This document shows positions 4,239-39,346 of a stretch of 64,000 nt of DNA, piece after piece (position 1 is the first letter of the stretch; the number at the start of each line of letters is the position of its first letter). Under the pieces are notes generated by a model, which made no database searches, was not told where the DNA came from, and saw only the letters and a program-made list of their open reading frames with translations. The DNA is from Maribacter spongiicola (GTDB lineage Bacteria > Bacteroidota > Bacteroidia > Flavobacteriales > Flavobacteriaceae): NCBI RefSeq assembly GCF_004364165.1, contig NZ_SOAY01000010.1, positions 709,098-773,097 on the forward strand, in the 5' to 3' direction. Both the position numbers and the translations under genes were made by a program.

Positions 4239-5351
4239 TTATTCAAAATAATTATAAGTTACATAACCACCTTTTTTCAAATATTGATCTTTTTGCATCA
4301 ATTTTAAATCATGTGTCATCATGTCTTTCACCAAACCTTGTAGGTCATATTCTGGGATCCAGCCTAACTTCGTATTTGCTTTTGTAGCATCACCAATTAA
4401 TAACTCAACCTCTGTTGGTCTAAAATATTTAGGATCAACAGCAAGAACTTCTTTTCCGATTTCAACTTGTATATCAGGATTAGAACATGATTTTATATAT
4501 CCTTTTTCATCAACACCTTCGCCTTTAAACTCTATTTCAATACCCATTTCTGCAAACGCCATTCTTACGAATTCACGAACAGGAGTAGTTTTACCAGTTG
4601 CAATTACCCAATCTTCTGCTTCATCAGCTTGAAGAATCATCCACATCATACGAACATAATCTTTAGCATGACCCCAATCTCGTTGCGCATCTAAATTACC
4701 TAGGTAAATTTTATCTTGTAAGCCTAAACCAATTCTTGCAGCAGCTCTAGTTATTTTTCTAGTTACAAAAGTTTCTCCTCTAATCGGCGATTCATGGTTA
4801 AACAAAATACCATTACAAGCGAACATGCCGTAAGCCTCTCTGTAGTTTACGGTGATCCAAAATGCATACATTTTTGCAACAGCATAAGGGCTACGCGGGT
4901 AAAAAGGAGTAGTCTCTGATTGCGGAACTTCTTGTACTTTTCCGTATAATTCTGAAGTTGATGCTTGGTAAATACGTGTTTTCTTCTCTAGACCTAACAA
5001 ACGTACGGCATCTAAAATTCTAAGTGTACCCAAACCATCTGCATTACCAGTATATTCTGGAACTTCGAATGAAACCTGAACGTGGCTCATTGCCGCTAAG
5101 TTATAAATCTCATCTGGTTGAATTTCTTGTATTAATCTAATTAGATTGGTACTATCGGTCATATCACCATAATGAAGTACAAAATTTCTGTTCTCAATAT
5201 GTGGGTCTTGATAAAGATGATCAATTCTGTCAGTATTAAACAATGACGCTCTTCTTTTAATACCGTGTACTTGATACCCCTTCTTTAATAAAAACTCGCT
5301 TAAATAAGCTCCGTCTTGACCTGTGACTCCAGTGATTAATGCTACTTTCAT
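4239..5351 (-). CDS. gmd: GDP-mannose 4,6-dehydratase
   Basis: This enzyme catalyses the first committed step to GDP-L-fucose: GDP-D-mannose to GDP-4-keto-6-deoxy-mannose. The 370-residue SDR protein starts with the NADP-binding [15 protein letters not shown]. It has the catalytic SPYAVAK (Tyr about 156, Lys about 160), the family motifs [19 protein letters not shown] and [15 protein letters not shown], and the expected full length. It is the first gene of a leftward gmd-fcl unit. An 874-base non-coding region precedes it, so a long leader is possible. Confidence 0.97.
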
Positions 5352-6225: not shown

Positions 6226-6477
6226 ATGATATCTAACATTTTAAGCGGGAAGCTAACACCTTCTTATCAAAAGAAAAAGTTAGTTTCTCTTGAAGATTGC
6301 TATACGCACCTTAAGCCTTATTTTAGGTTAAAGAAAAGTGTGAAGAACACTAGAACCAATCCTATATCGGTTCAAGAAAAATCAAAGAGTGCAAAAGTTC
6401 AAAATGCTGTCAACTCTATTGAGCAAAATCAAATTTTGTACGCCAAAATTATGACCGAAAGGTTGTTGAAAATTTAA
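6226..6477 (+). CDS. Small hypothetical protein with NQILYAKIM C-terminal motif
   Basis: This 83-residue basic protein, rich in Lys and Ser, has no signal peptide or membrane segment. I do not recognise a family. Its C-terminus (SIEQNQILYAKIMTERLL) closely matches the C-terminus of the 89-residue protein at 53532-53801 (QIEANQILYAKIMQERMM), while the N-terminal halves are only loosely alike. The gene stands alone, has a strong terminator at 6557-6589, and diverges from gmd. Its paralogue likewise diverges from the head of a polysaccharide operon (upxY). A role in control of polysaccharide synthesis is possible but unproven. Confidence 0.75.
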   Translation: MISNILSGKLTPSYQKKKLVSLEDCYTHLKPYFRLKKSVKNTRTNPISVQEKSKSAKVQNAVNSIEQNQILYAKIMTERLLKI

Positions 6478-6966
6478 GCGATTAGATAAAGAGAATGTGT
6501 TCTTTATGAAAGTGTTTTCTATATTAAATATATAGCGCTCAATTGATAATTATACTAGTGTAGTGATGAATTCATTACTACACTTTTTTGTGTTTTAAAA
6601 TTGAACGTAATGGCTTAAAGAGTTGTTCGTTTTCTGGAAGTTATGACACCTCTAAAAGTTTGAAAAACAACTATAATATTTCGACTTTTTCTTCATATGT
6701 AAACGCACATCTAATATTCACTACACATCAGCGAAACTAAATTTCTATTCTACCTATTAATAATATATTTATCGCACAATGGTATCATTGTAAATTTTAA
6801 TCACGGTCATGATGATGTTCGTTTAATGAATTCGACATCTTTAATTTGTTTTTAAATAAGTAGTACATACTTGATTAAAAGAAATAAAGGACTTTAAATT
6901 ATAAGATCTTTGTGACTGTTGGTTCCCCAAAATTTTAAATTGCATAACCTATATTATTAAAGAAGC
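6478..6966. other. Spacer with terminator, upstream of the NRPS gene
   Basis: After the terminator at 6557-6589 the stretch is AT-rich and without a gene. It must contain the promoter of the NRPS gene at 6967, but I find no convincing TAnnTTTG element with a -33 partner. The decamer GTACATACTT occurs here (about 6861) and at about 5981; the meaning is unclear. Confidence 0.5.
6557..6589 (+). terminator. Intrinsic terminator of the 83-residue gene
   Basis: AGTGTAGTGATGAA (6557-6570) pairs with TTCATTACTACACT (6571-6584), with one G-T wobble. A run of six T follows (6584-6589). This is the textbook rho-independent layout, 80 bases after the stop codon at 6477. Confidence 0.85.
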
Positions 6967-9900
6967 TTGGAAGTACTAACACATTTTAACCCTTTTGAAG
7001 GTCCAGAGATAAAACATATTCTGCATACTACAGATGCGCAAGAAGAAATTTGGTATTCTTGTTATTTTGGTGGTGACGATGCGAATAAGGCATATAACCT
7101 CTCATTAACCATTGAATTTGAAGGTGATTTAGATATTACCGCATTACAATGGTCTGTTGATATGTTAATTAGTAGGCATGAAGCTTTACGTTCTGTATTT
7201 AGTCCCGATGGAAAATTTATCAATGTATTTGCTTCCATAATCGCAAACTTAGATTTACAAGATTATTCAAGTCTGTCGGTCGAGGAAAAGAAAGCTGCCA
7301 TAAAAAACTATACCAAGAACGATACTGGTAAAGCGTTTGATCTAACCAAAGAACCCTTAATTCGATTCGCCGTTATTAGAACTGAACCGGATAAATTTCA
7401 GTTTATAATCACCACGCATCATATTGTATGTGATGGTTGGTCTTTAGGTATCATCATGCAAGAATTGGGAGCCTTGTATTCTGCAAAGGTTAAAAATGTA
7501 TCTCACAATCTTCCTGATGCTGTACCGTATACGGAATATGTGGCGCATCAAAATGAAATAAAAGTTAGTCCCGAATTCAATCAAACCGAACAATATTGGT
7601 TGAATGTCTTTAGAAACGATATTCCGACAACTAATCTTCCGACAGATTTTAAACAGATAACGAAGAGAACCTATAACGGTGCACGAATTAACCAGTTATT
7701 AGATAAAAATGTAGTAAAAGGTATTAAACAAACCGGAATTAAAGGTAACTCTAGTTTGGTATTGACCTTAATGGCGGCTTTTGAAATTTTGCTATATAAG
7801 ATTACCGAACAAGAAGGTATTGTGCTTGGGTTACCTGTTGCAGGGCAATCTTCAATGGGGGCAAAACATCTTGTTGGGCATTGCGTGAAGTTGTTGCCGA
7901 TGAAAAGTAATCTAGATATCGACGACAGTTTTATAGATTATTTAAAGAAAAGAAAATCTGCCAATTTTGATGCTTTTGAAAATCAAGAATTGTCATTTGG
8001 TAGTTTATTGAAGAAACTTAATATTCCTAGAACTCCTGGTAGAGTGCCATTGGTGCCGGTAGTTTTTAATGTGGATATGGATTTGGACGATGGTGTTACT
8101 TTTGAGGGACTTTCGTATCAATACCATAGTAATGAACGAGAATATGAGACTTTCGAGTTATTCTTGAATGCAACTGGGTCAAAAGATAATATAGTGTTGG
8201 AATGGTCGTATAATACCAACTTATTCAAAGAAAATACCATACAGGCTATGGGCGAAATGTTCAATGCTATTTTAAATACATTGATTGAACAGCCTAATGC
8301 TAAATTATCTGAAATACTTAACAGATCGAACGAAGATAGTATTGTAAAAGGGGGGTCATTAGGCTACCCAAATACTACCCTTCATGAGCTGTTATATAAA
8401 CAAGCTACAAGCACACCAACGGCAATTGCCTTAGAATTTAAAAACGAGAAGGTTACTTATGCAGAGTTGCAGCGAAAAATAAATAGTACTGCTGTTTACC
8501 TGTGGGAGGAAGGCATAAGACCAGGAGATACAGTGGCTATTTCATTGGAAAGATTACCTGAGTTAATTGCTACGTTATTCGCAATTCTTCAATGCGGAGC
8601 TAAATATGTGCCTATAGATACCGGCTACCCTGATAATCGTACCTTATTGATGATTTCAGATGCTAAATCGAAGTTTTTTATTTGTGACAAATCAAAACAG
8701 GCACTTGAGCATGGTGTCAAAACGATTTTCGTTGAAGAATTAAGAATCAAAGCAAACGAAACTAGTGAAACCATAATTGATGTAAATGTACCTTCTGATG
8801 CAGGAGCGTACATCATTTATACTTCTGGATCTACAGGAAAGCCAAAGGGAGTTCAGGTAACGCATAATAATGTGATAAACCTGTTGTTTTCAATGGGCAA
8901 AGAGCCAGGGATTACACAAAACGATAAAATATTCGCAACTACCACGATCTCTTTTGATGCCATGGTGATGGAGATTTTTTTACCATTGGTTCATGGTGCA
9001 AGTGTTGTATTGGTCGATGAAGAAACACGAAAAGATGGACATCTTTTATTACAAAAAGCAATAGAAGATGAAATAACTGTAATTTGGGGTACACCCACCA
9101 TCTGGCAAATTTTATTGGATTCTGGTTGGAAAAAACCATTGCACATTAAAGCGCTTATTGGTGGTGAACCCGTTTCTAAAGCACTTTCATTAAAATTGCT
9201 AGAAAAGGTTGATGAAGTTTGGAATATTTACGGACCTACGGAAACCACGGTATGCTGCATACTTACAAAAATTACCGATCAAGATAATCCGATTACCATA
9301 GGGAAGCCTATCGCAAATACCGATATTTATATTCTAGATGCTAATGGGAAACCAGTGAGAATAGGAGAAGTCGGAGAAATCGTAATTGGTGGCGACGGAT
9401 TGACCAAAGGCTATTTAGGACAAGAGGAACTTACAAATGAACGTTTCGTCAACAATACTTTTCAAGCTGAAACGAACACTAAAATGTATTTATCTGGAGA
9501 TTTAGGTAAGCTTTTGCCTAATGGTCAAATTGAATGTTTAGGTCGTAAAGACGAACAAGTTAAAGTTCGCGGACATAGAATTGAACTCGGAGAAATTGAG
9601 CATTCTTTAAGTAAGCTGAAAGGAATTCAATCAGCAGCCACCGATGTTAGAAATAATGCTTTAAAAGCATATGTAGTCTATGATGGTAACGAATGGGATT
9701 CTGATGTTGCACTTTGGAAGAAGCAATTAGCGGCGGAGTTACCCGTTTTTATGTTACCCCATGACTATATTAAATTAGATAAACTGCCCGTAACTATTAA
9801 CGGTAAATTAGATAGAAAAGGTCTACCGGATGATACGCATAATATCACTACTAATGAGGAGGTTATTCAACCTTTCAGTAAAGCTGAAAAATTAGTTTCA

Positions 9901-10920
9901 GAGGTTTGGAAAGAGTGTTTGTTTTTAGATCATGTGAATCTAAACGATGATTTCTTTGAACTAGGTGGGCATTCGTTAATTGCGGCTAAAGTAATGACTA
10001 GGCTAGAAGAAAAATCTGGTCAGCGCTTGCCGTTATCTTCTTTGTTCGAATATTCTACGCTTAAAAGTCTGGCTAGTTTATTAAAAATTGAGGAGCAAAC
10101 CATAACCTGGGATTCTATGGTCCCAATTCAGCCTAATGGATCTAAAACACCGCTATTTATAGTTCACGGAGCAGGTTTAAATATACTTTCTTTTAAAACC
10201 TTAAAGGATCATATGGATCCTGATCAGCCTATATATGCTTTTCAGGCGAAAGGACTAAACGGTAAAGAAGCATTATTGACTTCTGTAGAAGAAATAGCGG
10301 CGCATTATAATGAAGCGCTTTTGGCAACACAGCCAAAAGGACCCTATAAGTTGGCGGGTTATTCTTCTGGTGGTATTATAGCCTATGAAATGGCAAAACA
10401 ATTAATGGCAAAAGGAGAAGAGATTTCTGCCTTGGCGCTTTTAGATACCTATGCATATGCCCATTATGGTAAGAGTACCAGTTTAGGCAAAAAGATGGCT
10501 TATTTTAATTATTTAGCGAATAAGACTTTGCATGTTTTAAAGCAATTATCAAGTGTAGAAGGATTTAAATATAGAATAGGAGTCACTAAAGCCAACTTAA
10601 AGAAATTGTATTTAAGAGTAAAAAAAGATAAAACTACAGTAGCCAAAACAGATTATGATTGGGAGTATGAAAGCCGAATTATTGAGCACAATAAGGTCGT
10701 TGATAGCTATCATCTAAAACCATTGCCTATAAAGGTCGACTTATTTAGAATCGAAGATGTAATTGATTATACGCACGATAGTGTACATCTTGGCTGGAAA
10801 TCTTTTGCGGAAAACGGAATTGAGCTGCATTATGTGCCAGGGGATCACCTGAGTATGTTTTATCCGCCAAATGATAAGGTTTTATCTGCATCGCTGCAAA
10901 GAGTGCTTGATAATAACTAA
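6967..10920 (+). CDS. Non-ribosomal peptide synthetase, termination module C-A-PCP-TE
   Basis: This 1317-residue single-module NRPS adds one amino acid to an upstream thioester and releases the product. The condensation domain has an intact HHIVCDG (about 151-157). The adenylation domain has YTSGSTGKPKG (about 618), FDAMVME (Asp about 664), YGPTETT (about 755), and NGKLDRK (about 945). The carrier has GGHSL with phosphopantetheine Ser about 1003. A type I thioesterase follows, with GYSSG (Ser about 1133) and PGDH (His about 1294). My reading of the pocket residues is D-A-M-W-I-G-I-V-C-K, suggesting a hydrophobic residue, not a firm prediction. The only usable start is TTG at 6967, because an in-frame stop lies 9 bases upstream. 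It lies before the module it should receive substrate from (12330-19715). Confidence 0.95.
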   Translation: MEVLTHFNPFEGPEIKHILHTTDAQEEIWYSCYFGGDDANKAYNLSLTIEFEGDLDITALQWSVDMLISRHEALRSVFSPDGKFINVFASIIANLDLQDYSSLSVEEKKAAIKNYTKNDTGKAFDLTKEPLIRFAVIRTEPDKFQFIITTHHIVCDGWSLGIIMQELGALYSAKVKNVSHNLPDAVPYTEYVAHQNEIKVSPEFNQTEQYWLNVFRNDIPTTNLPTDFKQITKRTYNGARINQLLDKNVVKGIKQTGIKGNSSLVLTLMAAFEILLYKITEQEGIVLGLPVAGQSSMGAKHLVGHCVKLLPMKSNLDIDDSFIDYLKKRKSANFDAFENQELSFGSLLKKLNIPRTPGRVPLVPVVFNVDMDLDDGVTFEGLSYQYHSNEREYETFELFLNATGSKDNIVLEWSYNTNLFKENTIQAMGEMFNAILNTLIEQPNAKLSEILNRSNEDSIVKGGSLGYPNTTLHELLYKQATSTPTAIALEFKNEKVTYAELQRKINSTAVYLWEEGIRPGDTVAISLERLPELIATLFAILQCGAKYVPIDTGYPDNRTLLMISDAKSKFFICDKSKQALEHGVKTIFVEELRIKANETSETIIDVNVPSDAGAYIIYTSGSTGKPKGVQVTHNNVINLLFSMGKEPGITQNDKIFATTTISFDAMVMEIFLPLVHGASVVLVDEETRKDGHLLLQKAIEDEITVIWGTPTIWQILLDSGWKKPLHIKALIGGEPVSKALSLKLLEKVDEVWNIYGPTETTVCCILTKITDQDNPITIGKPIANTDIYILDANGKPVRIGEVGEIVIGGDGLTKGYLGQEELTNERFVNNTFQAETNTKMYLSGDLGKLLPNGQIECLGRKDEQVKVRGHRIELGEIEHSLSKLKGIQSAATDVRNNALKAYVVYDGNEWDSDVALWKKQLAAELPVFMLPHDYIKLDKLPVTINGKLDRKGLPDDTHNITTNEEVIQPFSKAEKLVSEVWKECLFLDHVNLNDDFFELGGHSLIAAKVMTRLEEKSGQRLPLSSLFEYSTLKSLASLLKIEEQTITWDSMVPIQPNGSKTPLFIVHGAGLNILSFKTLKDHMDPDQPIYAFQAKGLNGKEALLTSVEEIAAHYNEALLATQPKGPYKLAGYSSGGIIAYEMAKQLMAKGEEISALALLDTYAYAHYGKSTSLGKKMAYFNYLANKTLHVLKQLSSVEGFKYRIGVTKANLKKLYLRVKKDKTTVAKTDYDWEYESRIIEHNKVVDSYHLKPLPIKVDLFRIEDVIDYTHDSVHLGWKSFAENGIELHYVPGDHLSMFYPPNDKVLSASLQRVLDNN

Positions 10921-10940
10921 AGCTTAGATTTTACTAACAG

Positions 10941-11801
10941 TTAAACAGTAGTAGCGGCTAAAATTTCTTTTTCGCTATAATTGTCAGCACCCATATAAGT
11001 TAAGTAGTGCTCTGTACTGCTTTCTTTTTTAGAGTGATGCCACAAATTAAAGCCTGCATTTTTGAACAGTAGTTCGTAATTGTGAGAAAATGAACGCTCA
11101 TAACCATAGGGCTCTGAATGTTTATTAAGTTTTAAATTATGATCAACGCCGTTGGGTTCAATAGCGATGAAAACGGTATTTCCTAAACGATTTACCTGTT
11201 GAAGAAAATCTTGTAGTCTACTTTCAGTAAAGTACTCTAGTACTCCTCTGGAAGTTACAAAGATCATGTTTTTGTTTGCATAGGTATTCACCCAATCAAA
11301 AGCATCGCTAGCTACGAATTCAAGCTGAGTGTTCTTTTTGTAAGTTATTCTGTTCTGTGAAATCTGATTTTGATTTAAATCGATACCGATAAATCTTTCG
11401 ATTTGAGGGAGTTGTTCGCTTAAATAATTCAAGACCTTTCCATTACCTGTTCCTATCTCAACTATAGTATTGAAACGCTCATTTTTAGTTGATAATTTCT
11501 CCTTCAATAATTCAAAAATAAAAGAGCATTCCGGTAAAAAGTTTTTTTCAAAAGAGTCTGATGTTGCAGCAAAAAAGTGGTTACCCTGATTTTCCCAATA
11601 AGCTTTATGAAATCTAGACAGGGTTTCGTGATCCGAATTTATTTCGACCTTTCTCAAAAGAGATTTTCGAATAAAACGTTCAGTTAAAGTAACCTTATTT
11701 CCATCGGTAATAGTCATACCGGTTTCAGCAAGTTCTTTTGCTTTTTTCGGCATTAGAAAGACAAGTAAATCACCTATAAGAAGTACAATTTTACTTTTCA
11801 T
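10941..11801 (-). CDS. SAM-dependent methyltransferase
   Basis: This is a 286-residue class I methyltransferase. The SAM-binding motif VEIGTGNGKVL lies at about residues 112-122, followed by FIGIDLNQNQI (acidic end of the second strand) and an LEFVASDAFDW segment. The N-terminus is hydrophobic (KIVLLIGDLLVFLMP), so it may associate with the membrane. An in-frame GTG precedes the ATG by one codon; I prefer the ATG at 11801. The gene is antisense between the two megasynthase genes and converges on the NRPS, ending 20 bases from its stop. It could tailor the peptide-polyketide by N-, O- or C-methylation, but the substrate is not visible in the sequence. Confidence 0.85.
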   Translation of the reverse strand: MKSKIVLLIGDLLVFLMPKKAKELAETGMTITDGNKVTLTERFIRKSLLRKVEINSDHETLSRFHKAYWENQGNHFFAATSDSFEKNFLPECSFIFELLKEKLSTKNERFNTIVEIGTGNGKVLNYLSEQLPQIERFIGIDLNQNQISQNRITYKKNTQLEFVASDAFDWVNTYANKNMIFVTSRGVLEYFTESRLQDFLQQVNRLGNTVFIAIEPNGVDHNLKLNKHSEPYGYERSFSHNYELLFKNAGFNLWHHSKKESSTEHYLTYMGADNYSEKEILAATTV

Positions 11802-11898
11802 CACAAGGTAAAAAACAATTGATATGCAATATTAGAGAAAAAGTTGATTGATTTTTTTAAATGGAAGATTCTTAACAGATATTTAAAATCGTTTACCG

Positions 11899-12060
11899 AT
11901 GAAATCTGCATATAAACTATGGTTATTTACCCTCATTTTCTTAATCGTAATTCAATTTCGAAGAACGTCATTTTTTCTCGATGAAATTTTAGGGAATAAA
12001 AAAATAATGAAGGGTTTAATTAATATTAATAATTCAAATAAAGTACTGATAATCAATTAA
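11899..12060 (+). CDS. Possible small membrane peptide (53 residues)
   Basis: The frame starts at ATG and runs 53 codons. The first 20 residues form a hydrophobic helix after a basic start (MKSAYKLWLFTLIFLIVIQF). The next stretch (RRTSFFLDEILGNKK) looks protein-like, but the tail is Asn/Ile-rich low complexity. It may be a real small membrane protein in the NRPS cluster, the N-terminal relic of a decayed gene, or chance in AT-rich DNA. No homologue is recognised. Confidence 0.3.
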   Translation: MKSAYKLWLFTLIFLIVIQFRRTSFFLDEILGNKKIMKGLININNSNKVLIIN

Positions 12061-12087
12061 TTGAATAATTTTTTTTCATCGAAATAC

Positions 12088-12095
12088 TACTTTTG
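12088..12095 (+). promoter_or_regulatory. Possible -7 element for the hybrid synthase gene
   Basis: TACTTTTG matches TAnnTTTG. The nearest TTG upstream (12061-12063) is 24 bases away, longer than usual. It would give a leader of about 230 bases before the ATG at 12330. Confidence 0.3.
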
Positions 12096-12329
12096 CATAA
12101 CTTGTTTGAAATTGAACTGTGTTTGATATTTAGTAATTTTACGTGATTGATTATTTGCACTATTTGAGGCAGAAATGTCTATTGAATATGAATTGAACAA
12201 ATAGCTGTTGGATTAATTTTTTATGAAATTATGAAGTTATTCATCTAGTGTTTTAAAAGGTTCACCATTTTCCAATAAAAATAAGTAAATCTCAACCCCA
12301 CAAGTATATTACCTAATGATTGTTTTATA

Positions 12330-15300
12330 ATGGAAGCCAAAAAAGTGAATTTAATAACCGATTCTACAATAGCATATTGGAAGAATATTTTATTAGATGA
12401 TGTTAAATTACTAGACTTACCGAGTAGAAAGCTATCTGTAAAAAATAGCGTAGGTAAAGGATCATTATTACGTACCCGATTTTCTGCTGATGTCACCAGT
12501 AAAGTAAAAACCTACGTAGCTGGCGATACTTACATCGAAGCTTTTTTAATTTCAGCGTTGAGTGTGCTTTTACAGCGATACACCAATCAAATTGATATTG
12601 CTTTTGGTTTTACGGTCGATGATAACGACAATGCTCATAATAATTTAGCGCTATTTAGAAATAATATAGACCCTACTGAAGACTTTACTACGTTACATAA
12701 TCAAACAAAAGAGATACTTGCGTTACATAAAGCGAATCCATACCCGACAGATAAATTTTTAAAAGATTTTAATCTGGTAAAGGACAATGGTGAGAATGCT
12801 GTTTTAGATGTTGTACTAGCGATAAATTCTGTAATAGACGCGGCTGTTATTTCAAATGACAACGACGCTAAAGAGTCCATTAAATTTATAGGTTTGGTTG
12901 AAACCGATTCTAATATTAAGCTTGTATTGAATACTGCTGATGAGCATATCAAATTCGACCTCGTTTTCAATGAGACTATTTTTGATAAAGAGTTGATAGT
13001 GCAGTTCATGCAACATTACAAGCAAATTGTCCCGCTTTTAATTGAACAACCATCAACAGCAGTTGGTAGTATTAATATACTTTCAGAAAAAGAGCGATTT
13101 AAGTTATTGAAAGAATTCAATACCCCTTATGCAGCATACCCAAGAGAGAAAACTATTGTTGATCTATTAAATGAGCAAGCAGTTGAAACTCCGAATAACA
13201 TAGCGGTTGTTTACGAAGAAAATTCGTTAACCTATGATGAGCTTCATAAACTATCGAATCAATTTGCCAACTACCTTATCAAAAAACATGGCGCTGCAAA
13301 AGGTGATTTTGCATGCTTGATATTGGAGCGTAGCGAATGGTTGATTGTAAGCATGATGGGTATTATGAAGGCAGGTGCTGTATATGTACCTGTAGATCCA
13401 AATTATCCAGAGGAGCGAATCGATTATATAAAAGAAGATAGTAATTGCGATTTTACGGTTGATGCTTCGGAAATAGAAGAATTTAACGCAACTCGTGATT
13501 CGTACTCTACTGAAGACATTAAAGACATCAAACTTGAGCCAACCGATTTAATATATATTATTTATACTTCTGGTACTACGGGTAAACCTAAAGGTGTGCA
13601 ATTAGAGCATAGAAATATTGTAAGTCTGTTTGTTAATGATGATCAGTTCTATGATTTTACAGAGAACGATGTGTGGACCATGTTCCATTCCTATTGTTTT
13701 GATTTCTCGGTTTGGGAAATGTACGGGGCATTGTTATTTGGGGGCAAGCTAATCATTCCTTCGAAAGAGGTAATTAAAGATCCTTATGAATTCATGTCCT
13801 TGGTAATTAAGGAAAAGGTGACGATTTTAAATCAAACACCATCTTCCTTTTTAAATATTATGGGCAGTCTACCTACGGGTGATATCGATTTAAATTTACG
13901 ATATGTCATTTTTGGCGGTGAAGCACTATTTCCTAAGTATCTAGAAAAATGGTATCGCAAATTCCCAGGTATTCAATTTGTAAATGGGTATGGTATTACA
14001 GAAACGACCATATTTACCACTTTTAATATCATTGATGATGAAGATATCAAAACCAATATTTCTAATATTGGTAACTGTATATCAACATTATCTTCTCATG
14101 TGGTAAATACCAATAACCAATTGCAACCTATAGGTGTTATTGGTGAATTATGTATTTCCGGTCATGGTTTGGCAAGAGGTTATTTGAACAGACCAGAACT
14201 GACCGATCAGAAGTTTATTGATAATCCTTTTGAGCAGGGAGAAAAAATGTACCGTTCGGGTGATTTAGTAAAAAGACTTTCTGATGGTACTTTAGAATAT
14301 ATAGGTAGAATAGACCACCAAGTTAAGATCCGTGGGCACAGAGTAGAATTAGGGGAAATTGAATCTTCTATAGATGCCATTGCCGGGATAAAACGTACGG
14401 TGGTATTGCCTAATACAAATGCAGAAGGTGAAGCCAGGTTGGTTGCCTACCTATTGGCTGACGGTGAAAAACCTGAAATAAGTAGTATTAGGAAAGAGCT
14501 TTTTGATACTTTACCAGAATTTATGATGCCTACATTTTTTATGTGGGTAGATGAGTTTCCAACAAATTCTAACGGTAAAATCGATAAAGATAAATTACCG
14601 GAACCGGAGTATCTAAGGGCAACATCTGATGTAATTTTTAGAAAACCTCGTACTAAGACTGAAAAAGGACTTGCCAGTATTTGGGAAAAAGAATTAAAAG
14701 TATCGGGTATAGGTTTAGACGATAACTTCTTTGAAATGGGCGGTACTTCTATTGTAGCGCAAAAAGTGGTCAACGCCATTATGAAAACGCTTCAAATAAG
14801 AATTCCGGTCACCAAATTATATCAGCATACTACGATTTCTACGCTTTCAGAATTTATGGGCGGTGAAAAGAAAACAGTATTGTTTTCTAGTAAGCGAAAA
14901 GTTAACAATAAGTCTAACGATGTTGCCATAATCGGTATGGCAGGTCGGTTTCCTGGTGTCAATAGCATTGATGAATTTTGGGATGTTTTAAAGAATGGAA
15001 AAGAAACGATTTCATTTTTCACGAAAGAAGAATTGGATCAAAGTATTCCGGCATCCTTACGAAATGATCACTTATATGTTGCTGCAAGGGGTGTAGTGCC
15101 TTCTGCAAAAATGTTCGACGCCCGTTTCTTTGGTTTAACGCCTAAATTGGCAGAAGCTATGGATCCCCAACAACGTCTATTTTTAGAACTGGCTTGGGAG
15201 GCTCTTGAAGAATCTGGTCATTTGCCAGAACATTATACAGGTAGAGTAGGGGTTTACGCTGGTACAGGTACAAACACCTATTATAAAAAGAATGTACTAC

Positions 15301-18300
15301 CAAATAGTGAGGTCGTAGAAAGCATTGGTCAACTGCAGTTAGATACGGTGAACGAGAAAGATTATGTGGCTTCAAGAACTGCGTATCAATTAAATCTAAA
15401 AGGTCCTGCAGTAAGTGTGCATTCGGCATGTTCTACATCATTATTGGCGATTGCCGAAGCCGTAGAATCTATACGAAACGGTCACTGCGAAGTTGCCCTA
15501 GCGGGTGGTTCTAGTATTACCGCTCCAATAAATAGCGGACACCTTTATCAAGAAGGTTCTATGTTAAGTACAGATGGTCATTGCAGACCGTTTGATGCTC
15601 AAGCAAAGGGTACTGTTTTTAGTGATGGCGCCGGTGTTATCGTTTTAAAGAATTTAGAGGAAGCTAAGAAAGACGGAGATATTATTTATGGGGTTGTTAA
15701 AGGTGTAGGTATTAATAACGACGGAGGAGAAAAAGGTAGTTTTACGGCACCAAGTGCAGAAGGTCAGGCAAATGCGATAAAAAGTGCTATCGACGATGCC
15801 AATATTTCACCTGATACCATTAGCTATGTAGAGGCACATGGTACGGCGACTCCATTAGGTGATCCTATAGAAATAGAAGGTCTTCATCTGGCTTTTGGTG
15901 CGCAATCAAAAAAGAATTTTTGTGGTCTTGGTTCCGTAAAAAGTAATATGGGGCATATGACTGCAGCAGCAGGTGTTGCCGGTCTCATAAAAACAATCTT
16001 AGCATTTAATCATAAAGTAATTCCGCCTTCTTTAGGTTTTGAGAAACCTAATCCTGTTATTGATTTTGTAAATAGTCCGTTTTACGTCACCAATACATTA
16101 ACTCCGTGGGAAGTTGAAGGCCCGCGAAGAGCAGGTATCAGTTCATTCGGTGTAGGTGGTACCAATGTACACGTTGTGGTTGAGGAATATGAAATGGAGG
16201 CGAAGACTTCTAAATTTCAACGCCCATTACAATTATTGCCTATTTCTGCAAAAACACAAACTAGTTTAGCCGGATTCGAAACAGTATTAAAAAATCATAT
16301 CGATGCTAAACCAGATTTGAATTTAGCCGATGTTGCGGCTACCTTAAGTACGACTAAAGCTAGTTTTAGCCATCGTAGATTTATTTTAGCGAGCGATATA
16401 AAAGACGCTTCTGAGTTTTTGATGGATAACGATCTAAAAGCGACTCAGTCATCAGTGGTGAAAAATGTTCCGAGTGAGATTGTATTTTTACTGCCTGGTC
16501 AGGGTTCCCAGTATTTAAATATGGGTAAAGATTTTTATGATGGGGAAAGCGTTTTTAGAGAGGCTGTTGATACTTGTGCCGATGTCTTGTTGGATACTAT
16601 AAAAGTAGATATCAGAGAAATCATTTTTCAGGATGTGAATTCTGAAGAGGCAGAAAACAAGTTACGAGATACCCGTTATACACAACCTGCATTATTTACG
16701 ATAGAATATGCCCTTTCACAATTGTGGATGAGCTGGGGAATTCAGCCTACCGTTTTATGCGGACATAGTCTTGGCGAATTCGTAGGTGCACATTTAGCGG
16801 GAGTTTTCAGTTTAGAAGATGCCTTGAAATTGGTTTCTATGAGGGGTATTTTGGTAAGCAGACTTCCAAAAGGGAGTATGCTTACCGTTAGAATAGATCA
16901 AGAATCGTTAGAAAAAATTCTTCCGAAGACTTTATCAATCGCAGCTGTAAACTCAGCAACCCTATGTGTAGTATCTGGCGAAGATGATGAGATTACGAAA
17001 TTCAGTGAGCTTTTAAAAGAGCAGAGTTTGCCATACCGTTTAATTGCTACCAGTCATGCCTTCCATTCTTCTATGATGGATCCTATTTTAGAAGAATTTG
17101 GTGATGTGGTTAAGAATATCAACTTAAATATACCCGAATTACCAATAGTATCTACCGTTACAGGTACTTGGCTTACGAATGAAGAAGCTGTAGATCATGT
17201 ATACTGGACAAACCATTTACGAGATACTGTTCGTTTTTCAGATGCTATGGATACCATGGTGAAGTTAGAAGATGTGGTGTTGGTAGAAGTGGGTCCCGGT
17301 AATACGCTTACCACTTTAAGTCGCCAGAACAAAGGCGCAAAAAATATAAAATCCTTAGCTTCATTATCTATCCCGAAAAAAGATGAAAATTCTTATCACG
17401 GAATATTGAAAGCTTTAGGTCAATTGTGGCTAACTGGTCTTACCGTAGATTGGAACGCCTTTTATAAAAACCAAGAAAGACAAAGACTTAGATTACCAAC
17501 CTATGTTTTTGACCGCAAACCATGCTGGATCGATCCCGTCGTTTCTATACCAAAAGAAAGAACCCATTTAAATTCCGATCAGCCAATAACTAGAATAATA
17601 GAAAAACCAAAAAGTGCCGCACCAATGAGAAACGTCTCTATTTTAAATAAAATTTCAGAACTGATTTCAAATTCATACGGAATTGAGCTTGAAGTTGCCG
17701 ACAAAAACAGTAGCTTTTTAGAGTTAGGATTAGATTCTTTAATTCTAACACAAATGGCGATTACCTGTAAAAAAGAGTTTAAAATTCCGATTACATTTAG
17801 GCAGCTAAATGAAGATATCAATACGCCTGAGCTTTTAGCGAATTACTTAGATCAGAATTTGCCTGCCGAGTTTATGGCGCCACAACCGGTTGCAGAAGCA
17901 GCTCCTCAACCCATTGCAGCTTTTAATCAAGTGCAACAAGTTGCTCCTGCTGATTACACTACTTCGGCTACCAACCAAACGGCTATTGGCTTAATAGGTG
18001 AGCAGCTTAACCTATTAAGTAGACAACTTCAGTTATTACAAGGTAATGTTGTAGCTCAAGCTCCACAACCTATTGCTGTATCAAATCCTGCTCCGGCAAA
18101 AGTGGTGAATGGGTCTTCTAGTTTAGATTCAAGATCAGAAGAGGAAAAGCTTGAGCATAAAAAACCGTTCGGTGCTTCACCAAGAATCGAAAAGCAATCA
18201 ACTGGTTTAGATCAGGCACAATCACAATATCTAAAAGATCTTACGGTAAAGTACAATACCAAAACTATTGGTAGTAAAAACTACGCTCAAGATAATAGAG

Positions 18301-19715
18301 CTAAAATGGCAGATCCAAGAGTAGTATCTGGCTTTAAGCCATTAACTAAAGAATTAGTGTATCCGGTAGTAATCGGTAAATCTGCGGGTAACCGTTTGTG
18401 GGATGTAGATGGTAATGAATACATAGATGCCTTAAACGGATTTGGATCTTGCTTTTTTGGATATCAACCAGATTTCATTAAAAAAGCGATGCATGACCAA
18501 ATTGAATTGGGTTATGAAGTAGGTCCACAACATCCTTTAGCAGGTGAAGTTTGTGAACTGCTATGTGAATTTACAGGTCATGATAGAGCTGCTTTATGTA
18601 ACACAGGGTCAGAAGCTGTTCTTGGCGCTATGCGTATTGCACGTACGGTTACTGGGCGTTCGCTTATCGTTGCATTTACTGGTGCTTATCATGGTATTAA
18701 TGATGAAGGTATCGTAAGAGGTTCACAGAAAAAGAAAACGTTCCCGGCTGCTGCGGGTATACTTCCAGAAGCAGTTCAAAATATGTTGATTCTTGATTAT
18801 GGAACGGACGAAAGTTTGCAGATCATAAAAGATAGAGCCCATGAAATTGCCGGGGTACTTATAGAACCTGTTCAAAGTCGTAGACCAGAGTTTCAACCCG
18901 TAGAATTTATAAAGAACGTAAGAGAACTAACTACTAAAGAAGAGATTGCTTTTATTTTCGATGAGGTTATTACTGGTTTCAGAATGCATCCGGGTGGTGC
19001 ACAGGCATTATTCGATGTAAAAGCTGATCTGGCAACTTACGGTAAAGTTATGGGCGGCGGAGTTTCCATAGGTGCTATTGTAGGTAAGAAGGAGTATATG
19101 GATGCGCTTGATGGCGGATTTTGGCAATATGGTGATGACTCGTACCCTGAGGTAGGTGTTACCTATTTTGCAGGTACTTTTGTTCGTCATCCTTTAGCTT
19201 TGGCTTCTTCAAAGGCAGCCTTGCTTCATATGAAAGAACAAGGTCCAAGTCTGCAGGCAAATGTGTCTGCTATGACAGAACGTATGGCAAAAAGCTTGAA
19301 TGCTACTTTTGCAAAAGACGGACTCCCGATAGAAATCACTTATTTCGGTTCTCTATGGAGATTGAAATTCAAGAAAGATATTCCGTATTCAGAATTGCTA
19401 TTTGTTAGTATGCGTGAAAAAGGAATCCATATTTGGGACGGTTTCCCATGTTTTTTGACCACAGCATATACGAGTAATGATGTAGATTTCTTAATGAAAA
19501 CCTTGTTGTCTTCAATTGATGATTTGGTACAAGTAGGTATACTTACCAAAGAAGGCGTAAACGGTAATCATGTGGTTAGCTCCCAATCATCTTTTGATAA
19601 ATTGAACACTCCGCCAGTAGTTGGTGCGCGTTTAGGTAGAGATGAAAAAGGGCAACCAGCTTGGTATGTGGCAGATGCCAACCAAGAAAGTGGTTACATG
19701 AAAATTGATATTTAA
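12330..19715 (+). CDS. Hybrid NRPS-PKS with in-line aminotransferase (A-PCP-KS-AT-ACP-AMT)
   Basis: This 2461-residue megasynthase starts with about 245 residues resembling only the C-terminal lobe of a condensation domain, with no HHxxxDG. An adenylation domain follows (YTSGTTGKPKG about 412, FDFSVWE about 457, GYGITETT about 553, NGKIDKD about 748), then a carrier (GGTS, Ser about 807). The ketosynthase has ACSTS Cys about 1034, His about 1170 and His about 1209. The acyltransferase has GHSLGE Ser about 1480 and HAFH about 1576-1579, the malonyl-type signature. A second carrier has Ser about 1803. After a Pro/Ala/Gln linker comes a class III PLP aminotransferase of glutamate-1-semialdehyde type (FIFDEVITGF Asp about 2211, Lys about 2239). 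No ketoreductase is present. Expected chemistry is amino-acid loading, malonyl extension, then conversion of the beta-ketone to an amine. The pocket reads D-F-W-N-I-G-G-I-F-K; its first six residues fit threonine-type codes. Confidence 0.95.
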   Translation: MEAKKVNLITDSTIAYWKNILLDDVKLLDLPSRKLSVKNSVGKGSLLRTRFSADVTSKVKTYVAGDTYIEAFLISALSVLLQRYTNQIDIAFGFTVDDNDNAHNNLALFRNNIDPTEDFTTLHNQTKEILALHKANPYPTDKFLKDFNLVKDNGENAVLDVVLAINSVIDAAVISNDNDAKESIKFIGLVETDSNIKLVLNTADEHIKFDLVFNETIFDKELIVQFMQHYKQIVPLLIEQPSTAVGSINILSEKERFKLLKEFNTPYAAYPREKTIVDLLNEQAVETPNNIAVVYEENSLTYDELHKLSNQFANYLIKKHGAAKGDFACLILERSEWLIVSMMGIMKAGAVYVPVDPNYPEERIDYIKEDSNCDFTVDASEIEEFNATRDSYSTEDIKDIKLEPTDLIYIIYTSGTTGKPKGVQLEHRNIVSLFVNDDQFYDFTENDVWTMFHSYCFDFSVWEMYGALLFGGKLIIPSKEVIKDPYEFMSLVIKEKVTILNQTPSSFLNIMGSLPTGDIDLNLRYVIFGGEALFPKYLEKWYRKFPGIQFVNGYGITETTIFTTFNIIDDEDIKTNISNIGNCISTLSSHVVNTNNQLQPIGVIGELCISGHGLARGYLNRPELTDQKFIDNPFEQGEKMYRSGDLVKRLSDGTLEYIGRIDHQVKIRGHRVELGEIESSIDAIAGIKRTVVLPNTNAEGEARLVAYLLADGEKPEISSIRKELFDTLPEFMMPTFFMWVDEFPTNSNGKIDKDKLPEPEYLRATSDVIFRKPRTKTEKGLASIWEKELKVSGIGLDDNFFEMGGTSIVAQKVVNAIMKTLQIRIPVTKLYQHTTISTLSEFMGGEKKTVLFSSKRKVNNKSNDVAIIGMAGRFPGVNSIDEFWDVLKNGKETISFFTKEELDQSIPASLRNDHLYVAARGVVPSAKMFDARFFGLTPKLAEAMDPQQRLFLELAWEALEESGHLPEHYTGRVGVYAGTGTNTYYKKNVLPNSEVVESIGQLQLDTVNEKDYVASRTAYQLNLKGPAVSVHSACSTSLLAIAEAVESIRNGHCEVALAGGSSITAPINSGHLYQEGSMLSTDGHCRPFDAQAKGTVFSDGAGVIVLKNLEEAKKDGDIIYGVVKGVGINNDGGEKGSFTAPSAEGQANAIKSAIDDANISPDTISYVEAHGTATPLGDPIEIEGLHLAFGAQSKKNFCGLGSVKSNMGHMTAAAGVAGLIKTILAFNHKVIPPSLGFEKPNPVIDFVNSPFYVTNTLTPWEVEGPRRAGISSFGVGGTNVHVVVEEYEMEAKTSKFQRPLQLLPISAKTQTSLAGFETVLKNHIDAKPDLNLADVAATLSTTKASFSHRRFILASDIKDASEFLMDNDLKATQSSVVKNVPSEIVFLLPGQGSQYLNMGKDFYDGESVFREAVDTCADVLLDTIKVDIREIIFQDVNSEEAENKLRDTRYTQPALFTIEYALSQLWMSWGIQPTVLCGHSLGEFVGAHLAGVFSLEDALKLVSMRGILVSRLPKGSMLTVRIDQESLEKILPKTLSIAAVNSATLCVVSGEDDEITKFSELLKEQSLPYRLIATSHAFHSSMMDPILEEFGDVVKNINLNIPELPIVSTVTGTWLTNEEAVDHVYWTNHLRDTVRFSDAMDTMVKLEDVVLVEVGPGNTLTTLSRQNKGAKNIKSLASLSIPKKDENSYHGILKALGQLWLTGLTVDWNAFYKNQERQRLRLPTYVFDRKPCWIDPVVSIPKERTHLNSDQPITRIIEKPKSAAPMRNVSILNKISELISNSYGIELEVADKNSSFLELGLDSLILTQMAITCKKEFKIPITFRQLNEDINTPELLANYLDQNLPAEFMAPQPVAEAAPQPIAAFNQVQQVAPADYTTSATNQTAIGLIGEQLNLLSRQLQLLQGNVVAQAPQPIAVSNPAPAKVVNGSSSLDSRSEEEKLEHKKPFGASPRIEKQSTGLDQAQSQYLKDLTVKYNTKTIGSKNYAQDNRAKMADPRVVSGFKPLTKELVYPVVIGKSAGNRLWDVDGNEYIDALNGFGSCFFGYQPDFIKKAMHDQIELGYEVGPQHPLAGEVCELLCEFTGHDRAALCNTGSEAVLGAMRIARTVTGRSLIVAFTGAYHGINDEGIVRGSQKKKTFPAAAGILPEAVQNMLILDYGTDESLQIIKDRAHEIAGVLIEPVQSRRPEFQPVEFIKNVRELTTKEEIAFIFDEVITGFRMHPGGAQALFDVKADLATYGKVMGGGVSIGAIVGKKEYMDALDGGFWQYGDDSYPEVGVTYFAGTFVRHPLALASSKAALLHMKEQGPSLQANVSAMTERMAKSLNATFAKDGLPIEITYFGSLWRLKFKKDIPYSELLFVSMREKGIHIWDGFPCFLTTAYTSNDVDFLMKTLLSSIDDLVQVGILTKEGVNGNHVVSSQSSFDKLNTPPVVGARLGRDEKGQPAWYVADANQESGYMKIDI

Positions 19716-19751
19716 AACAAGAAAAATTTGAAGCTGAGATTGCCTTTTTAA

Positions 19752-20444
19752 ATGACACATTTATTATTTACGTATTTAACCAATTGCGACAATGATGCTT
19801 TCTTTGCGGATGCAGAGCATATGTTTTCGGAAGAGTTTGTACGTAAATACTCAAAATATAAGCGTTGGCAAGATGCGAAATCGACCATATTAGGTAGGTT
19901 GCTTTTAGCTTACGGATTAAAAAATTTATATCAAGTAGATATAGATAACCTCAAGATGAATTTCTCTAAGGATAAAAAACCCTTTTTAGAAAACTCATCT
20001 ATTCAATTCAACATTTCGCACTCTAATGATGTAATTGTTTGCGCAATTACATCGGTGGGTGCCATTGGTGTTGATATAGAGAAAATCAGTGCTATCCCTA
20101 TTGAAGATTTCAAAGATCAATTCTTACCATTAGAATATGAAACTATACTTAAGGCACCAAAGGTATTAGAGCAGTTCTATACCTATTGGACCCAAAAAGA
20201 AGCCGTCGTCAAATCTAACGGGTCTGGCTTGCATATACCTTTACAATCATTTGAAATCAGCAATCGATCTACAGTCATCGCTGACCAGTCCTATTATCTA
20301 AATGAAATCAGTATAGATGTTGACTACAAATGTCATATGGCGACACAAAGCTTAATTCATGACGAAGATTTAACGATTATTGGTCTAAAACCCGCATTAC
20401 TTACAGATTTTGGGTCGGTAAATAGCTTAAAAACTTTTCGATAA
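19752..20444 (+). CDS. Sfp-type 4'-phosphopantetheinyl transferase
   Basis: This 230-residue enzyme moves phosphopantetheine from CoA to the conserved Ser of carrier domains, activating the NRPS and PKS carriers at 6967-10920 and 12330-19715. It has the family's paired motifs: GVDIEKI near residue 106 (metal-binding Asp) and YWTQKEAVVKSNGSG near residue 146. FNISHS lies before them. It starts 36 bases after the synthase stop and is probably cotranscribed with it. Its length is typical for this type. The tight linkage indicates a self-contained cluster. Confidence 0.93.
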   Translation: MTHLLFTYLTNCDNDAFFADAEHMFSEEFVRKYSKYKRWQDAKSTILGRLLLAYGLKNLYQVDIDNLKMNFSKDKKPFLENSSIQFNISHSNDVIVCAITSVGAIGVDIEKISAIPIEDFKDQFLPLEYETILKAPKVLEQFYTYWTQKEAVVKSNGSGLHIPLQSFEISNRSTVIADQSYYLNEISIDVDYKCHMATQSLIHDEDLTIIGLKPALLTDFGSVNSLKTFR

Positions 20445-20593
20445 TTGCGGTAAACATCGTTTGTGGCCGTTAAAGTGTCTACTTAAATATAGCAACTGCT
20501 TTTATAAAAAGGTTGAATTGCCGTTTTTCTTAATTACGACGATTTTATAAACTAGGATATCGGAATTTAAGTGAAACAGTTTTTTGTTTAAAG

Positions 20594-20601
20594 TAATTTT
20601 G
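20594..20601 (+). promoter_or_regulatory. Possible -7 element before wza
   Basis: TAATTTTG matches TAnnTTTG. Transcription from here would begin near 20608, which favours the ATG at 20647 as the wza start over the ATG at 20611 or the TTG at 20584. No clean -33 partner is seen (a TTTA lies 24 bases upstream). Confidence 0.3.
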
Positions 20602-20646
20602 AACCTTACCATGTTTACTAACTATAAGCGTCAAATTATTTTACTT

Positions 20647-21438
20647 ATGAAAGCTATTATTTCCCCATTTAACCTACAAAAGACAAGAGTCAACGTATTT
20701 AAATATGCTTTACTACTATTCGTTGCAGTACAAATTTCATCTTGTGGCAGTGCTAAAAAATCTTCTTACTTCAATGAAGTAGGTAACAATTCGTTTGCTA
20801 CTTATTTTGAACCATTAGAACCGATTTTACAAAAGAACGATTTGTTAAGCATAAACATAACCAGTTTAAATGCTGAGGTTACAGAGATGTTCAATCTCGC
20901 CAATAATGCTGGTGGTGCGCAACCTACAGGGTATTTAATTGATCAAGATGGCTTTATACGTTTCCCGGTGTTAGGTAAAATAGAAGTTTCTGGGTTGACC
21001 AAAAAAGAGCTAAGAGAATATATTAGAGAAGAATTGATCTCGAAAAAATTATTAATGGAGCCGATTGTAGATATTCGATTTATGAATTTTAAGGTTTCTG
21101 TATTAGGTGAAGTAAATCAGCCTGCTGTATTTACCATTCCTAATGAGAAAGTAACTTTATTAGAGGCATTGGGTATGGCCGGTGACATGACCATTTACGC
21201 ACAGCGGAATAATGTGTTGTTGATTAGTGAAGAAGATGGTATTAAGAGTACCAAAAGAATTGATTTAACATCAGACGAATTGTTTACCTCTCCTAATTAT
21301 TATTTAAGACCTAATGATATTGTATATGTGCAACCTAACGATAGAAAGGTTAGAAATACGTCTAATGCTGCCCAATGGTTTTCAGTAATACTAGGATCTT
21401 TGTCATTAGCGGTAATTTCCATCTCTACTTTCAAGTAA
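20647..21438 (+). CDS. wza: Wza-like polysaccharide export lipoprotein
   Basis: This outer-membrane polysaccharide export protein forms the exit channel for polymerised glycan. From the chosen ATG it has 263 residues. A basic-hydrophobic signal ends in a lipobox (QISSCGS), predicting a lipoprotein. A polysaccharide export domain follows (LQKNDLLSINITSLN through PVLGKIEVSGLTKKELRE), then an SLBB-like segment (VSVLGEVNQPAVFTIP) and a C-terminal hydrophobic stretch. ATGs at 20611 and 20647 and a TTG at 20584 share the frame. I chose 20647 because the preceding residues are not needed for the signal and a -7-like element lies at 20594. It is the first gene of a rightward wza-wzc-wzy-wzx operon and the only Wza homologue in the window. 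Confidence 0.9.
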   Translation: MKAIISPFNLQKTRVNVFKYALLLFVAVQISSCGSAKKSSYFNEVGNNSFATYFEPLEPILQKNDLLSINITSLNAEVTEMFNLANNAGGAQPTGYLIDQDGFIRFPVLGKIEVSGLTKKELREYIREELISKKLLMEPIVDIRFMNFKVSVLGEVNQPAVFTIPNEKVTLLEALGMAGDMTIYAQRNNVLLISEEDGIKSTKRIDLTSDELFTSPNYYLRPNDIVYVQPNDRKVRNTSNAAQWFSVILGSLSLAVISISTFK

Positions 21439-21549
21439 GCTGAACAAGATATCTTTTTTAAAAACTGTTTACTTAAATCTTAAGGTGATATAACCAACCT
21501 ATATCGGTTATGTATACTGAAGCCTTATTACCCTATAAAATTGAATGTA

Positions 21550-23868: not shown

Positions 23869-23911
23869 TAACTAGTTAACCTGTAGCATTCAGCGAACGT
23901 AAAAAGCTAAA

Positions 23912-34578: not shown

Positions 34579-34604
34579 GTAAAAAGACTAAGTTCTGGTT
34601 ATAA

Positions 34605-35510: not shown

Positions 35511-36055
35511 TAGTCTTTGAAATTTCTTTTCTTAATGAATTTTGCAGGATTGCCACCCACAACTGTCCAAGGTTCTACATCTTTAAAAACTACCCCTCTT
35601 GCACCTACAACAGCACCCTCGCCAATGGTTACACCAGGGGCTATAAAAGCTTCAGCTGCCACCCATGCAAATTTTGAAACAGTAATTGGTAAAGTGTATA
35701 GGGGGTGGCCTTTAAGATTAAAATCATGAGTTCCAGTACATATATAGGAACGTTGGGATATAATCGATCGATACCCTAGGGTAATTTTCCCCTGTGAATA
35801 TAAATCTACACCATTTGCTACGCCTACTTGATCATGGATTTCTAAATTCCATGGTGCCCAAATTTTCACTTTTGGGTAGATGTGAACACCCTTACCAATT
35901 TTAGCACCAAAAAGCCTAAGTATGACTGAACGCCATTCATGAAAGGGTTTGGGTGAATATTTAAATGCAATTAGATATGTGAAGTTCCAAATAAGTCTTG
36001 CAAATTTGTTTTTTAACGAAAAAGAGGAACCAGTATAGGTATCTACATTATGCAT
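35510..36055 (-). CDS. wcaF: WcaF-like hexapeptide-repeat O-acetyltransferase
   Basis: This 181-residue left-handed beta-helix acetyltransferase has the imperfect hexapeptide rhythm (IGKGVHIYPKVKIWAPW, ITLGYRSIISQRSYICTG), the likely catalytic His in TGTHDF, and the C-terminal VIGxGAVVGA/VGGNPAK type ending. The N-terminal layout matches colanic-acid WcaF-type enzymes. It should transfer acetyl from acetyl-CoA to a repeat-unit sugar in the cytoplasm. It overlaps the preceding glycosyltransferase by 8 bases and the next gene by one. Confidence 0.88.
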   Translation of the reverse strand: MHNVDTYTGSSFSLKNKFARLIWNFTYLIAFKYSPKPFHEWRSVILRLFGAKIGKGVHIYPKVKIWAPWNLEIHDQVGVANGVDLYSQGKITLGYRSIISQRSYICTGTHDFNLKGHPLYTLPITVSKFAWVAAEAFIAPGVTIGEGAVVGARGVVFKDVEPWTVVGGNPAKFIKKRNFKD

Positions 36056-38197: not shown

Positions 38198-38222
38198 TTT
38201 AAAAATTCGATTCAAATTTTAT

Positions 38223-39332: not shown

Positions 39333-39346
39333 ACTCTAAATGTTAT

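Follow-up and report, generated by a model that had tools for sequence, protein, structure and literature searches.

A two-protein, amino-acid-started NRPS-PKS-aminotransferase line beside capsule-type genes in Maribacter, with relatives often near polysaccharide loci

In the assembly lines for mycosubtilin/iturin (MycA) and microcystin (McyE), which begin from fatty or aryl chains, an in-line class III aminotransferase acts on the beta-ketoacyl chain held by the acyl carrier protein (ACP), between the ketosynthase (KS) and acyltransferase (AT) domains on one side and the condensation (C) domain on the other. Statine-type modules that combine nonribosomal peptide synthetase (NRPS) and polyketide synthase (PKS) domains make a gamma-amino acid from an amino acid and malonate, the beta-ketone being reduced. 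We analysed a 64,000-nucleotide, Flavobacteriaceae-type stretch of the Maribacter spongiicola genome (contig C1, positions 709098-773097; own genome G000), here called the window, in which two megasynthases form a short line: an NRPS protein (6967-10920, + strand) and a large NRPS-PKS protein (12330-19715, + strand), the latter ending in an in-line aminotransferase (AMT) and having its nearest named relatives in Maribacter. Compared with the MycA and McyE lines, the Maribacter line is short and its adenylation (A) and peptidyl carrier protein (PCP) domains would load an amino acid; compared with statine-type modules, its beta-ketone would be aminated. We give an even chance to the reading that this is an apparently working two-protein, amino-acid-started line and that its family in many cases works for exopolysaccharide or capsule loci.

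The closest description in print is that of Pedobacter heparinus C6XWU5, with the order A-CP-KS-AT-CP-PLP1 and the predicted product 'Nrp-Mal-Gly-Pk' (Milano et al. 2013, Table 2, PMC3870968), and the same source gives related domain orders in Salinisphaera and Thiorhodococcus. The large protein of the window has the A-PCP-KS-AT-ACP-AMT order of C6XWU5 with half a C domain added in front; this likeness is one of description, the other Pedobacter relatives having been compared by sequence. C6XWU5 is listed there without a known product, and the section that lists it is silent on polysaccharide context (PMC3870968). An earlier note on this DNA had considered an amino-acid-loaded unit before an in-line aminotransferase unusual, which did not hold: the arrangement was printed in 2013 (PMC3870968) and occurs in many Bacteroidota and on plasmids of Proteobacteria, and we reject the idea that the architecture is novel in itself. 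The note had also named a close characterised cluster with a known product as something that would count against its claim, and of this the architecture proved to be known, while a product was not found in the literature searched. That literature, in which subscription journals were poorly covered and rhizobial copies were not targeted, gave no product for the line and no report of an exopolysaccharide link, and the portions consulted of PMC3870968, PMC10734526, PMC12283262, PMC6519341, PMC6963908 and PMC13252402 mention neither; absence of a product or link from print is not shown by this. The new part is the polysaccharide setting, not the architecture. AMT matches were found in 13 of 299 genomes in the family search (own genome and G019, of other architecture, counted) and in 18 of 395 in the phylum search (a figure that takes in the own genome and five matches of greater distance). 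Among the cores read, the two-protein form is the commonest, next to a fused form (G569), forms with an extra module (G330, G312 and Pedobacter foliorum L025) and another split (G651).

Within Maribacter, the AMT was present in 18 of 36 genomes, 12 of them at 87% identity or more (type I, which includes the window) and six at 68-73% (type II). The neighbouring wzy gene occurred in exactly the 12 type I genomes of the 36, and in only two of 397 family genomes drawn, both of type I. All type I copies whose flanks were read share the order initiating transferase, fcl, gmd, NRPS genes, 4'-phosphopantetheinyl transferase (PPTase), wza-wzc-wzy-wzx and two glycosyltransferases, the methyltransferase between the megasynthases being variable. 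In the window, the initiating sugar transferase (Bac_transf) lies at 1632-2978 on the - strand (family match at C1:710753-711307), next to synteny-placed GDP-L-fucose synthase-like and GDP-mannose dehydratase-like genes on that strand (3100-4191 and 4239-5351), which from their sequence features we take to be fcl and gmd. On the + strand, the PPTase (19752-20444, Pfam) leads into genes for a Wza-like polysaccharide export protein (20584-21438, Pfam), a Wzc/Wzz-like chain length determinant and kinase (21541-23868, family search), a Wzy-like polymerase (23912-25174; Pfam score under the cut-off, and present only in genomes with the type I line), a Wzx-like flippase (25174-26541, family search), a GT2 glycosyltransferase (26562-27449, family search) and a possible glycosyltransferase (27446-28387) whose sole match, to GT25, is sub-threshold (E 0.036), with a WecG/TagA glycosyltransferase farther on (30333-31094, family search). 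The earlier description of the cluster as self-contained is doubtful in this light, since the large open reading frame (ORF) and the PPTase are co-stranded with wza-wzc-wzy-wzx and the glycosyltransferase gene and co-occur with them. In a tree built on rpoB from 30 genomes, type I has a patchy distribution among close relatives, and type I, type II and empty genomes stand as neighbours. The same site is marked in relatives by a DUF808 gene. There, G317 retains the initiating transferase, fcl, gmd and a 90-residue WecG stub, and G304 retains a 114-residue stub of the initiating transferase; the AMT and wzy are absent from both. Joint loss of the line and of the capsule genes would explain these two genomes most simply, the individual steps being unseen. 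Among the five unbroken type II copies, four lie near an initiating transferase, and the five are characterised by a nearby initiating transferase and/or an adjoining capsule-type glycosyltransferase (the G329 copy was tested).

Recurrence of the line beside polysaccharide genes is observed in two phyla. For Bacteroidota, we used polysaccharide proteins from the window as a panel, counted a match within 10 kb of the line, and took as controls 38 windows, each 20 kb long and drawn from the genomes concerned or from related ones. A panel match was found at 9 of 20 distinct locations, which had been collapsed by hand from 32 loci after the result was seen, compared with 1 of the 38 control windows (Fisher p = 1.3e-4); uncollapsed, 16 of the 32 loci had a match, and when two matches were required the figures were 6/20 and 1/38 (p = 0.0052). 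Short or broken copies (G066, G573, L020, G311) and those of other architecture (G669, G019, L027) were left out. The panel misses genes, as G140 and G651 were scored negative despite visible sugar genes nearby. In a plasmid collection, a tblastn search with the large protein gave six records at 80% coverage or more, and the AMT alone gave 50. Flanks of 10-16 kb were examined in 24 hand-picked records, comprising 15 amino-acid-started lines and nine other AMT lines. Genes for Wza/Wzc, a sugar transferase, a flippase or exopolysaccharide transport were found near 12 of the 15 amino-acid-started lines compared with none of the nine others (p = 3.4e-4); with annotated records only, the counts were 7/10 and 0/7 (p = 0.0098), and with one record per genus, Variovorax being taken as negative, 6/8 and 0/9 (p = 0.0023). 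The annotated positives are Variovorax paradoxus VAI-C, Aliiroseovarius, Rhodobacter CZR27, Rhizobium CCGE532, Loktanella, Rhizobium SL42 and Jannaschia, and the unannotated ones Ensifer canadensis, R. jaguaris, S. fredii NXT3, Rhizobium 11515TR and AB2/73. The control from B. amyloliquefaciens, with galU and GtrA about 11 kb off, was scored negative. The Xenorhabdus line, which is split (A-KS-AT, then AMT-C-A-PCP) and has an unclear start, was counted as a control; moved to the test group, it gives 12/16 compared with 0/8 (p = 0.0013). The order in V. paradoxus (PPTase, hydrolase, an unknown gene, wza, wzc, sugar transferase, GDP-L-fucose synthase) resembles that of the Maribacter locus. In the AMT tree, most AMTs of amino-acid-started lines, 35 in number, form one clade with none of the nine control tips inside (support 0.945); an iturin-type AMT lies outside the clade that holds the Maribacter AMT, as do those of G669 and G019, and L027 yielded no AMT.

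Pfam matches reproduced the coordinates and domain order previously given for both megasynthases, the methyltransferase and the PPTase, and no stop codon interrupts the reading frames at 6967-10920 and 12330-19715. The NRPS protein, for which the ORF list gives a TTG start, carries the second module and the release domain: C (7021-8319, motif HHIVCDG), the core of the second A domain, A2 (8398-9417), PCP (9895-10083, Pfam) and a type I thioesterase (TE; 10150-10857, motifs GYSSG and GDHLSM). The large protein, which would carry out loading, extension and beta-amination, contains the core of the first A domain, A1 (13170-14186), PCP1 (14670-14855, Pfam), KS (14916-16040; Pfam matches to the N, C and extension parts, with motifs SACSTS, EAHGTAT and KSNMGH), AT (16482-17441, Acyl_transf_1, motifs GHSLGE and HAFHS), ACP (17727-17969, approximate limits set by hand around the second PP-binding stretch, motif GLDSL) and AMT (18360-19433, Aminotran_3, motif TYGKVMGG). 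We take HAFHS to indicate a malonyl-type AT, and the Lys of TYGKVMGG is presumably the one that binds pyridoxal phosphate. With KS-AT-ACP followed by Aminotran_3 in one chain together with TYGKVMGG, the AMT is of the in-line class III type, and its best match in the PDB is the AMT of mycosubtilin MycA (6kfm, 2.2e-108). The fatty acyl-AMP ligase start and long peptide of iturin and mycosubtilin are absent: the A code is of amino-acid type and there are only two A domains. The Condensation family has two matches in the own genome, both at this locus. Among relatives, the motif patterns gave nothing for KS in 3/41, for AMT in 8/41, for AT in G651 and for the TE histidine in 17/39.

It could be supposed that the cluster is a remnant or silent, with intact frames and little or no present function in the strain, and the half C domain that opens the large protein fits such a view. 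This domain (12369-13109) was overlooked by the earlier note; residues 14-260 match only positions 195-456 of the Condensation profile, corresponding to the C-terminal half. Type I copies that were read at the N-terminus carry it, so it is not decay in this strain; it was not seen in other relatives. Measured against three divergent relatives, the ratio of nonsynonymous to synonymous divergence (dN/dS) was 0.066-0.073 for the NRPS gene and 0.072-0.085 for the PKS gene; both megasynthases are under strong purifying selection. The active-site motifs of KS, AT and AMT, whose inactivation the earlier note had held out as a possible refutation, are intact. Together, the low dN/dS and the motifs present in both window proteins make a remnant very improbable, and because the domains and motifs are there and dN/dS is low, the cluster is confirmed as real. 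In a tree of A domains, the A domains at the second position in type I cluster with those at the first position in other genera (support 0.946); this tree and the half C domain suggest that type I arose by module exchange with the half C domain as its scar, and the half C domain is probably a recombination remnant.

The logic proposed earlier, of an amino acid, malonate, beta-amination, a second amino acid and release, appears reasonable from the domain order. A1 would load a Thr-like amino acid onto PCP1; KS would condense this amino acid with the malonate that AT loads, leaving a gamma-amino-beta-keto acyl chain on the ACP; the in-line AMT would replace the ketone by an amine, which makes the chain a 3,4-diamino acyl one; the C domain of the NRPS protein would couple this chain to a second amino acid; and the TE would release or transfer the product. 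Every chemical step is a prediction; the straightforward product would be a 3,4-diamino acyl unit, formed from the first amino acid and malonate by amination of the ketone, then coupled to the second amino acid and TE-released. With Thr, the unit would be 3,4-diamino-5-hydroxyhexanoyl, its free acid being C6H14N2O3 (162.10 Da). The code of A1, DFWNIGGIFK, agrees at 7 of 10 positions with DFWNIGMVHK, which the consulted part of PMC12283262 counts with the Thr/Dhb-activating codes, in that case for an N-methylated Thr; the homologue on Spirosoma linguale pSLIN02 has exactly DFWNIGMVHK at the A1 position. This likeness is consistent with the Thr-like first A domain of the earlier note. The A2 code of type I, DAMWLGIVCK, did not occur in the paper library searched, which accordingly gave no substrate assignment. 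Type I has the C-A-PCP-TE partner protein and lacks the Gly-type A code that is common, not universal, in the family. Among second-protein codes of other relatives, 23 of 35 start with DILQ (Gly-like), DILQLGMIWK being the code of Gly-activating domains in the part consulted of PMC12283262. That code is exact in the rhizobial copies and in Loktanella, with near variants in Jannaschia and Rhodobacter, and Variovorax and Aliiroseovarius differ. As a natural product whose vicinal diamine counts for activity, guadinomine offers a likeness to the predicted unit (PMC6963908, consulted in part).

Relatives vary this layout in several ways. Winogradskyella L019 has, at 16691-25135, a tandem pair of C-A-PCP-TE proteins, each with the code DILQLGMIWK. 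An extra C and PCP follow the Gly-type module, mostly before the TE, in rhizobial L248, L250, L252, L253 and L261-L263, Loktanella L249 and Jannaschia L251, and the HHxxxDG pattern was absent from this extra C domain in the five loci checked (L250, L251, L261-L263). Genes for a DegT aminotransferase and a GMC oxidoreductase are close by in two annotated rhizobial copies; a Cupin_8/JmjC-type oxygenase gene adjoins the line in three relatives, G173, G557 and G651 (L042, L183, L202); an alanine-racemase-like gene is near the line in G066 (L048), and an enolase-superfamily gene, possibly for a dipeptide epimerase, in G134 (L036).

We favour a part for the product in the glycan or at its surface. 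The neighbouring Wza-Wzc-Wzx-Wzy system would employ the product as a cationic component of the glycan that is not a sugar, as a decoration or a cross-link, and through the diamine-bearing acyl group an acidic coat would gain positive charge or become cross-linked; alternatively, the product may act on the glycan surface. Attachment to the glycan would be a further step beyond the observed gene neighbourhood. A partial precedent is the O-polysaccharide of Flavobacterium psychrophilum, whose acyl R-group is proposed to be made by the fatty acid synthase-like wfpC-F and transferred by wfpG (PMC6519341, consulted in part). There, as in the Maribacter unit, genes for ACP-borne acyl synthesis lie within a Wzx/Wzy locus; however, F. 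psychrophilum has separate type II-like enzymes, an acyltransferase and an amino sugar (PMC6519341), whereas the Maribacter unit has an NRPS-PKS of modular type, and no gene for an acyltransferase or an amino sugar was recognised in it.

Several observations weigh against a role of the line at the polysaccharide. Across eight type I genomes, NRPS and PKS distances track those of rpoB (r 0.81-0.82) and correlate less with those of wzy (r 0.48-0.50) and of wzx or the glycosyltransferases (0.15-0.44); because they track rpoB better, the capsule genes recombine separately. The line looks vertically descended and old in the clade, with adjoining sugar genes that recombine yet are kept, and this is no proof of joint transfer. 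In the Bacteroidota survey, 11 of the 20 locations had no panel match, among them Winogradskyella L019, G288, G134, G209, G213 and the location shared by G676/G631/G790/G775, and several positives rest on a single weak match (19-30 bits in Pedobacter). Among the 12 plasmid positives, five come from unannotated records with one initiating-transferase match each, and no adjoining locus was seen for Spirosoma pSLIN02, Variovorax RA8 or Variovorax WDL1 (one glycosyltransferase only). The Fisher tests ignore relatedness, and the records were selected and scored by hand; moreover, polysaccharide loci are islands that gather foreign genes, to which random control windows are blind. Finally, no acyltransferase, amino-sugar or other coupling gene was recognised among the scanned genes of the type I unit, a few of which had no or weak family matches. 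As no acyltransferase or amino-sugar gene was recognised, coupling would fall to the TE, to the possible glycosyltransferase at 27446-28387 or to a gene elsewhere.

Some of these observations fit an ordinary secreted small molecule (an antibiotic, protease inhibitor, chelator or signal) whose genes sit in islands that are insertion hot spots and whose product never touches the glycan. This is possible, at well under an even chance. The core stands without a panel match at those 11 Bacteroidota locations, and the Spirosoma plasmid and two from Variovorax carry it with no such locus adjoining. Near the Spirosoma pSLIN02 (L244) and Variovorax RA8 (L242) copies, both lacking a polysaccharide locus, are copper oxidase, copper ATPase or DUF305 genes, and a vicinal diamine could bind copper. 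A1 codes differ widely among relatives, as for diversifying metabolites. A small molecule with no tie to the glycan sits less easily with the 12-of-12 co-occurrence with wzy and the two relatives in which remnants of the locus survive without the AMT or wzy, or with the finding that Alpha- and Betaproteobacteria again have the line close to genes for Wza/Wzc or a sugar transferase; nor was a dedicated exporter or resistance gene recognised in the Maribacter unit, though no systematic search was made.

The gene order also bears on a third view, in which an unattached product regulates or starts off the polysaccharide pathway, for example by serving as an adaptor for the lipid carrier, as a primer or as an internal signal on Wzc or regulators. 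The orders PPTase-wza-wzc in Maribacter and PPTase-hydrolase-unknown-wza-wzc in Variovorax paradoxus, and the Crp/Fnr and response regulators that adjoin two rhizobial copies, agree with it; the variation in A1 specificity is more in keeping with a structural epitope than with a signal or primer that stays fixed, and we regard control of the pathway as improbable. Returning to a part in the glycan itself, we advance only tentatively the wider proposal that the family, with members in Bacteroidota and in Alpha- and Betaproteobacteria, produces short peptides of the 3,4-diamino-acyl kind, many of them Gly-ended, that are built into or onto exopolysaccharides and lend acidic glycans positive charges or cross-links.

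If the link is functional, modular assembly lines would supply surface-glycan parts in rhizobia, roseobacters and marine flavobacteria, whose coats decide attachment and host contact, and an orphan architecture printed in 2013 would gain a testable job, with an unusual natural vicinal-diamine amino acid predicted. On the wider proposal, differences in the first amino acid would amount to a serotype-like epitope, and a modular NRPS-PKS product would be a structural component of bacterial glycans. If the link is merely positional, the family would still be a compact orphan line.

Among the smaller features of the locus, an unannotated 83-residue ORF (6226-6477, + strand) without a Pfam match is conserved upstream of the NRPS gene. 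It was found in 11 of the 36 Maribacter genomes, every one of type I; the remaining type I genome, the metagenome-assembled G322 (68% complete), is without it. Weak paralogues occur elsewhere in G302, G308 and G309; the one in G302 has a further initiating transferase about 3.4 kb away. Compared with G302, synonymous divergence (dS) is 0.20 for this ORF and 0.55 for the NRPS gene, and because the former is low relative to the latter, the DNA of the ORF itself may be conserved. A terminator-like hairpin lies 3' of it (6557-6584, + strand); 13 such hairpins were found in comparison with 9.9 expected, so that this one is weak evidence alone, and in some relatives matching changes are visible by eye in both arms. 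The gene between the megasynthases (10941-11804, - strand) matches S-adenosylmethionine-dependent methyltransferases (Methyltransf_25/23, Pfam); it was present in 9 of 17 clustered loci and missing from some type I copies, and a search for a solved structural relative gave none. A protein of 261-269 residues near the methyltransferase in some relatives had no Pfam match in the two copies searched.

In the window, Rfam found no known RNA at the gathering score, and PADLOC gave no match among six proteins checked, on which ground a defence system was rejected. A second polysaccharide locus (33658-53290, - strand) comes with separate Wzc-like, Wzx-like and initiating-transferase genes of its own, together with a sugar-transfer-type ATP-grasp gene, a PaaK-like gene (weak AMP-binding match) and a gene for a NusG-like protein. 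Beyond it, an open frame of at least 3299 residues (54104-64000, + strand), mostly of higher GC content than its surroundings, runs out of the window and perhaps encodes a giant surface protein.

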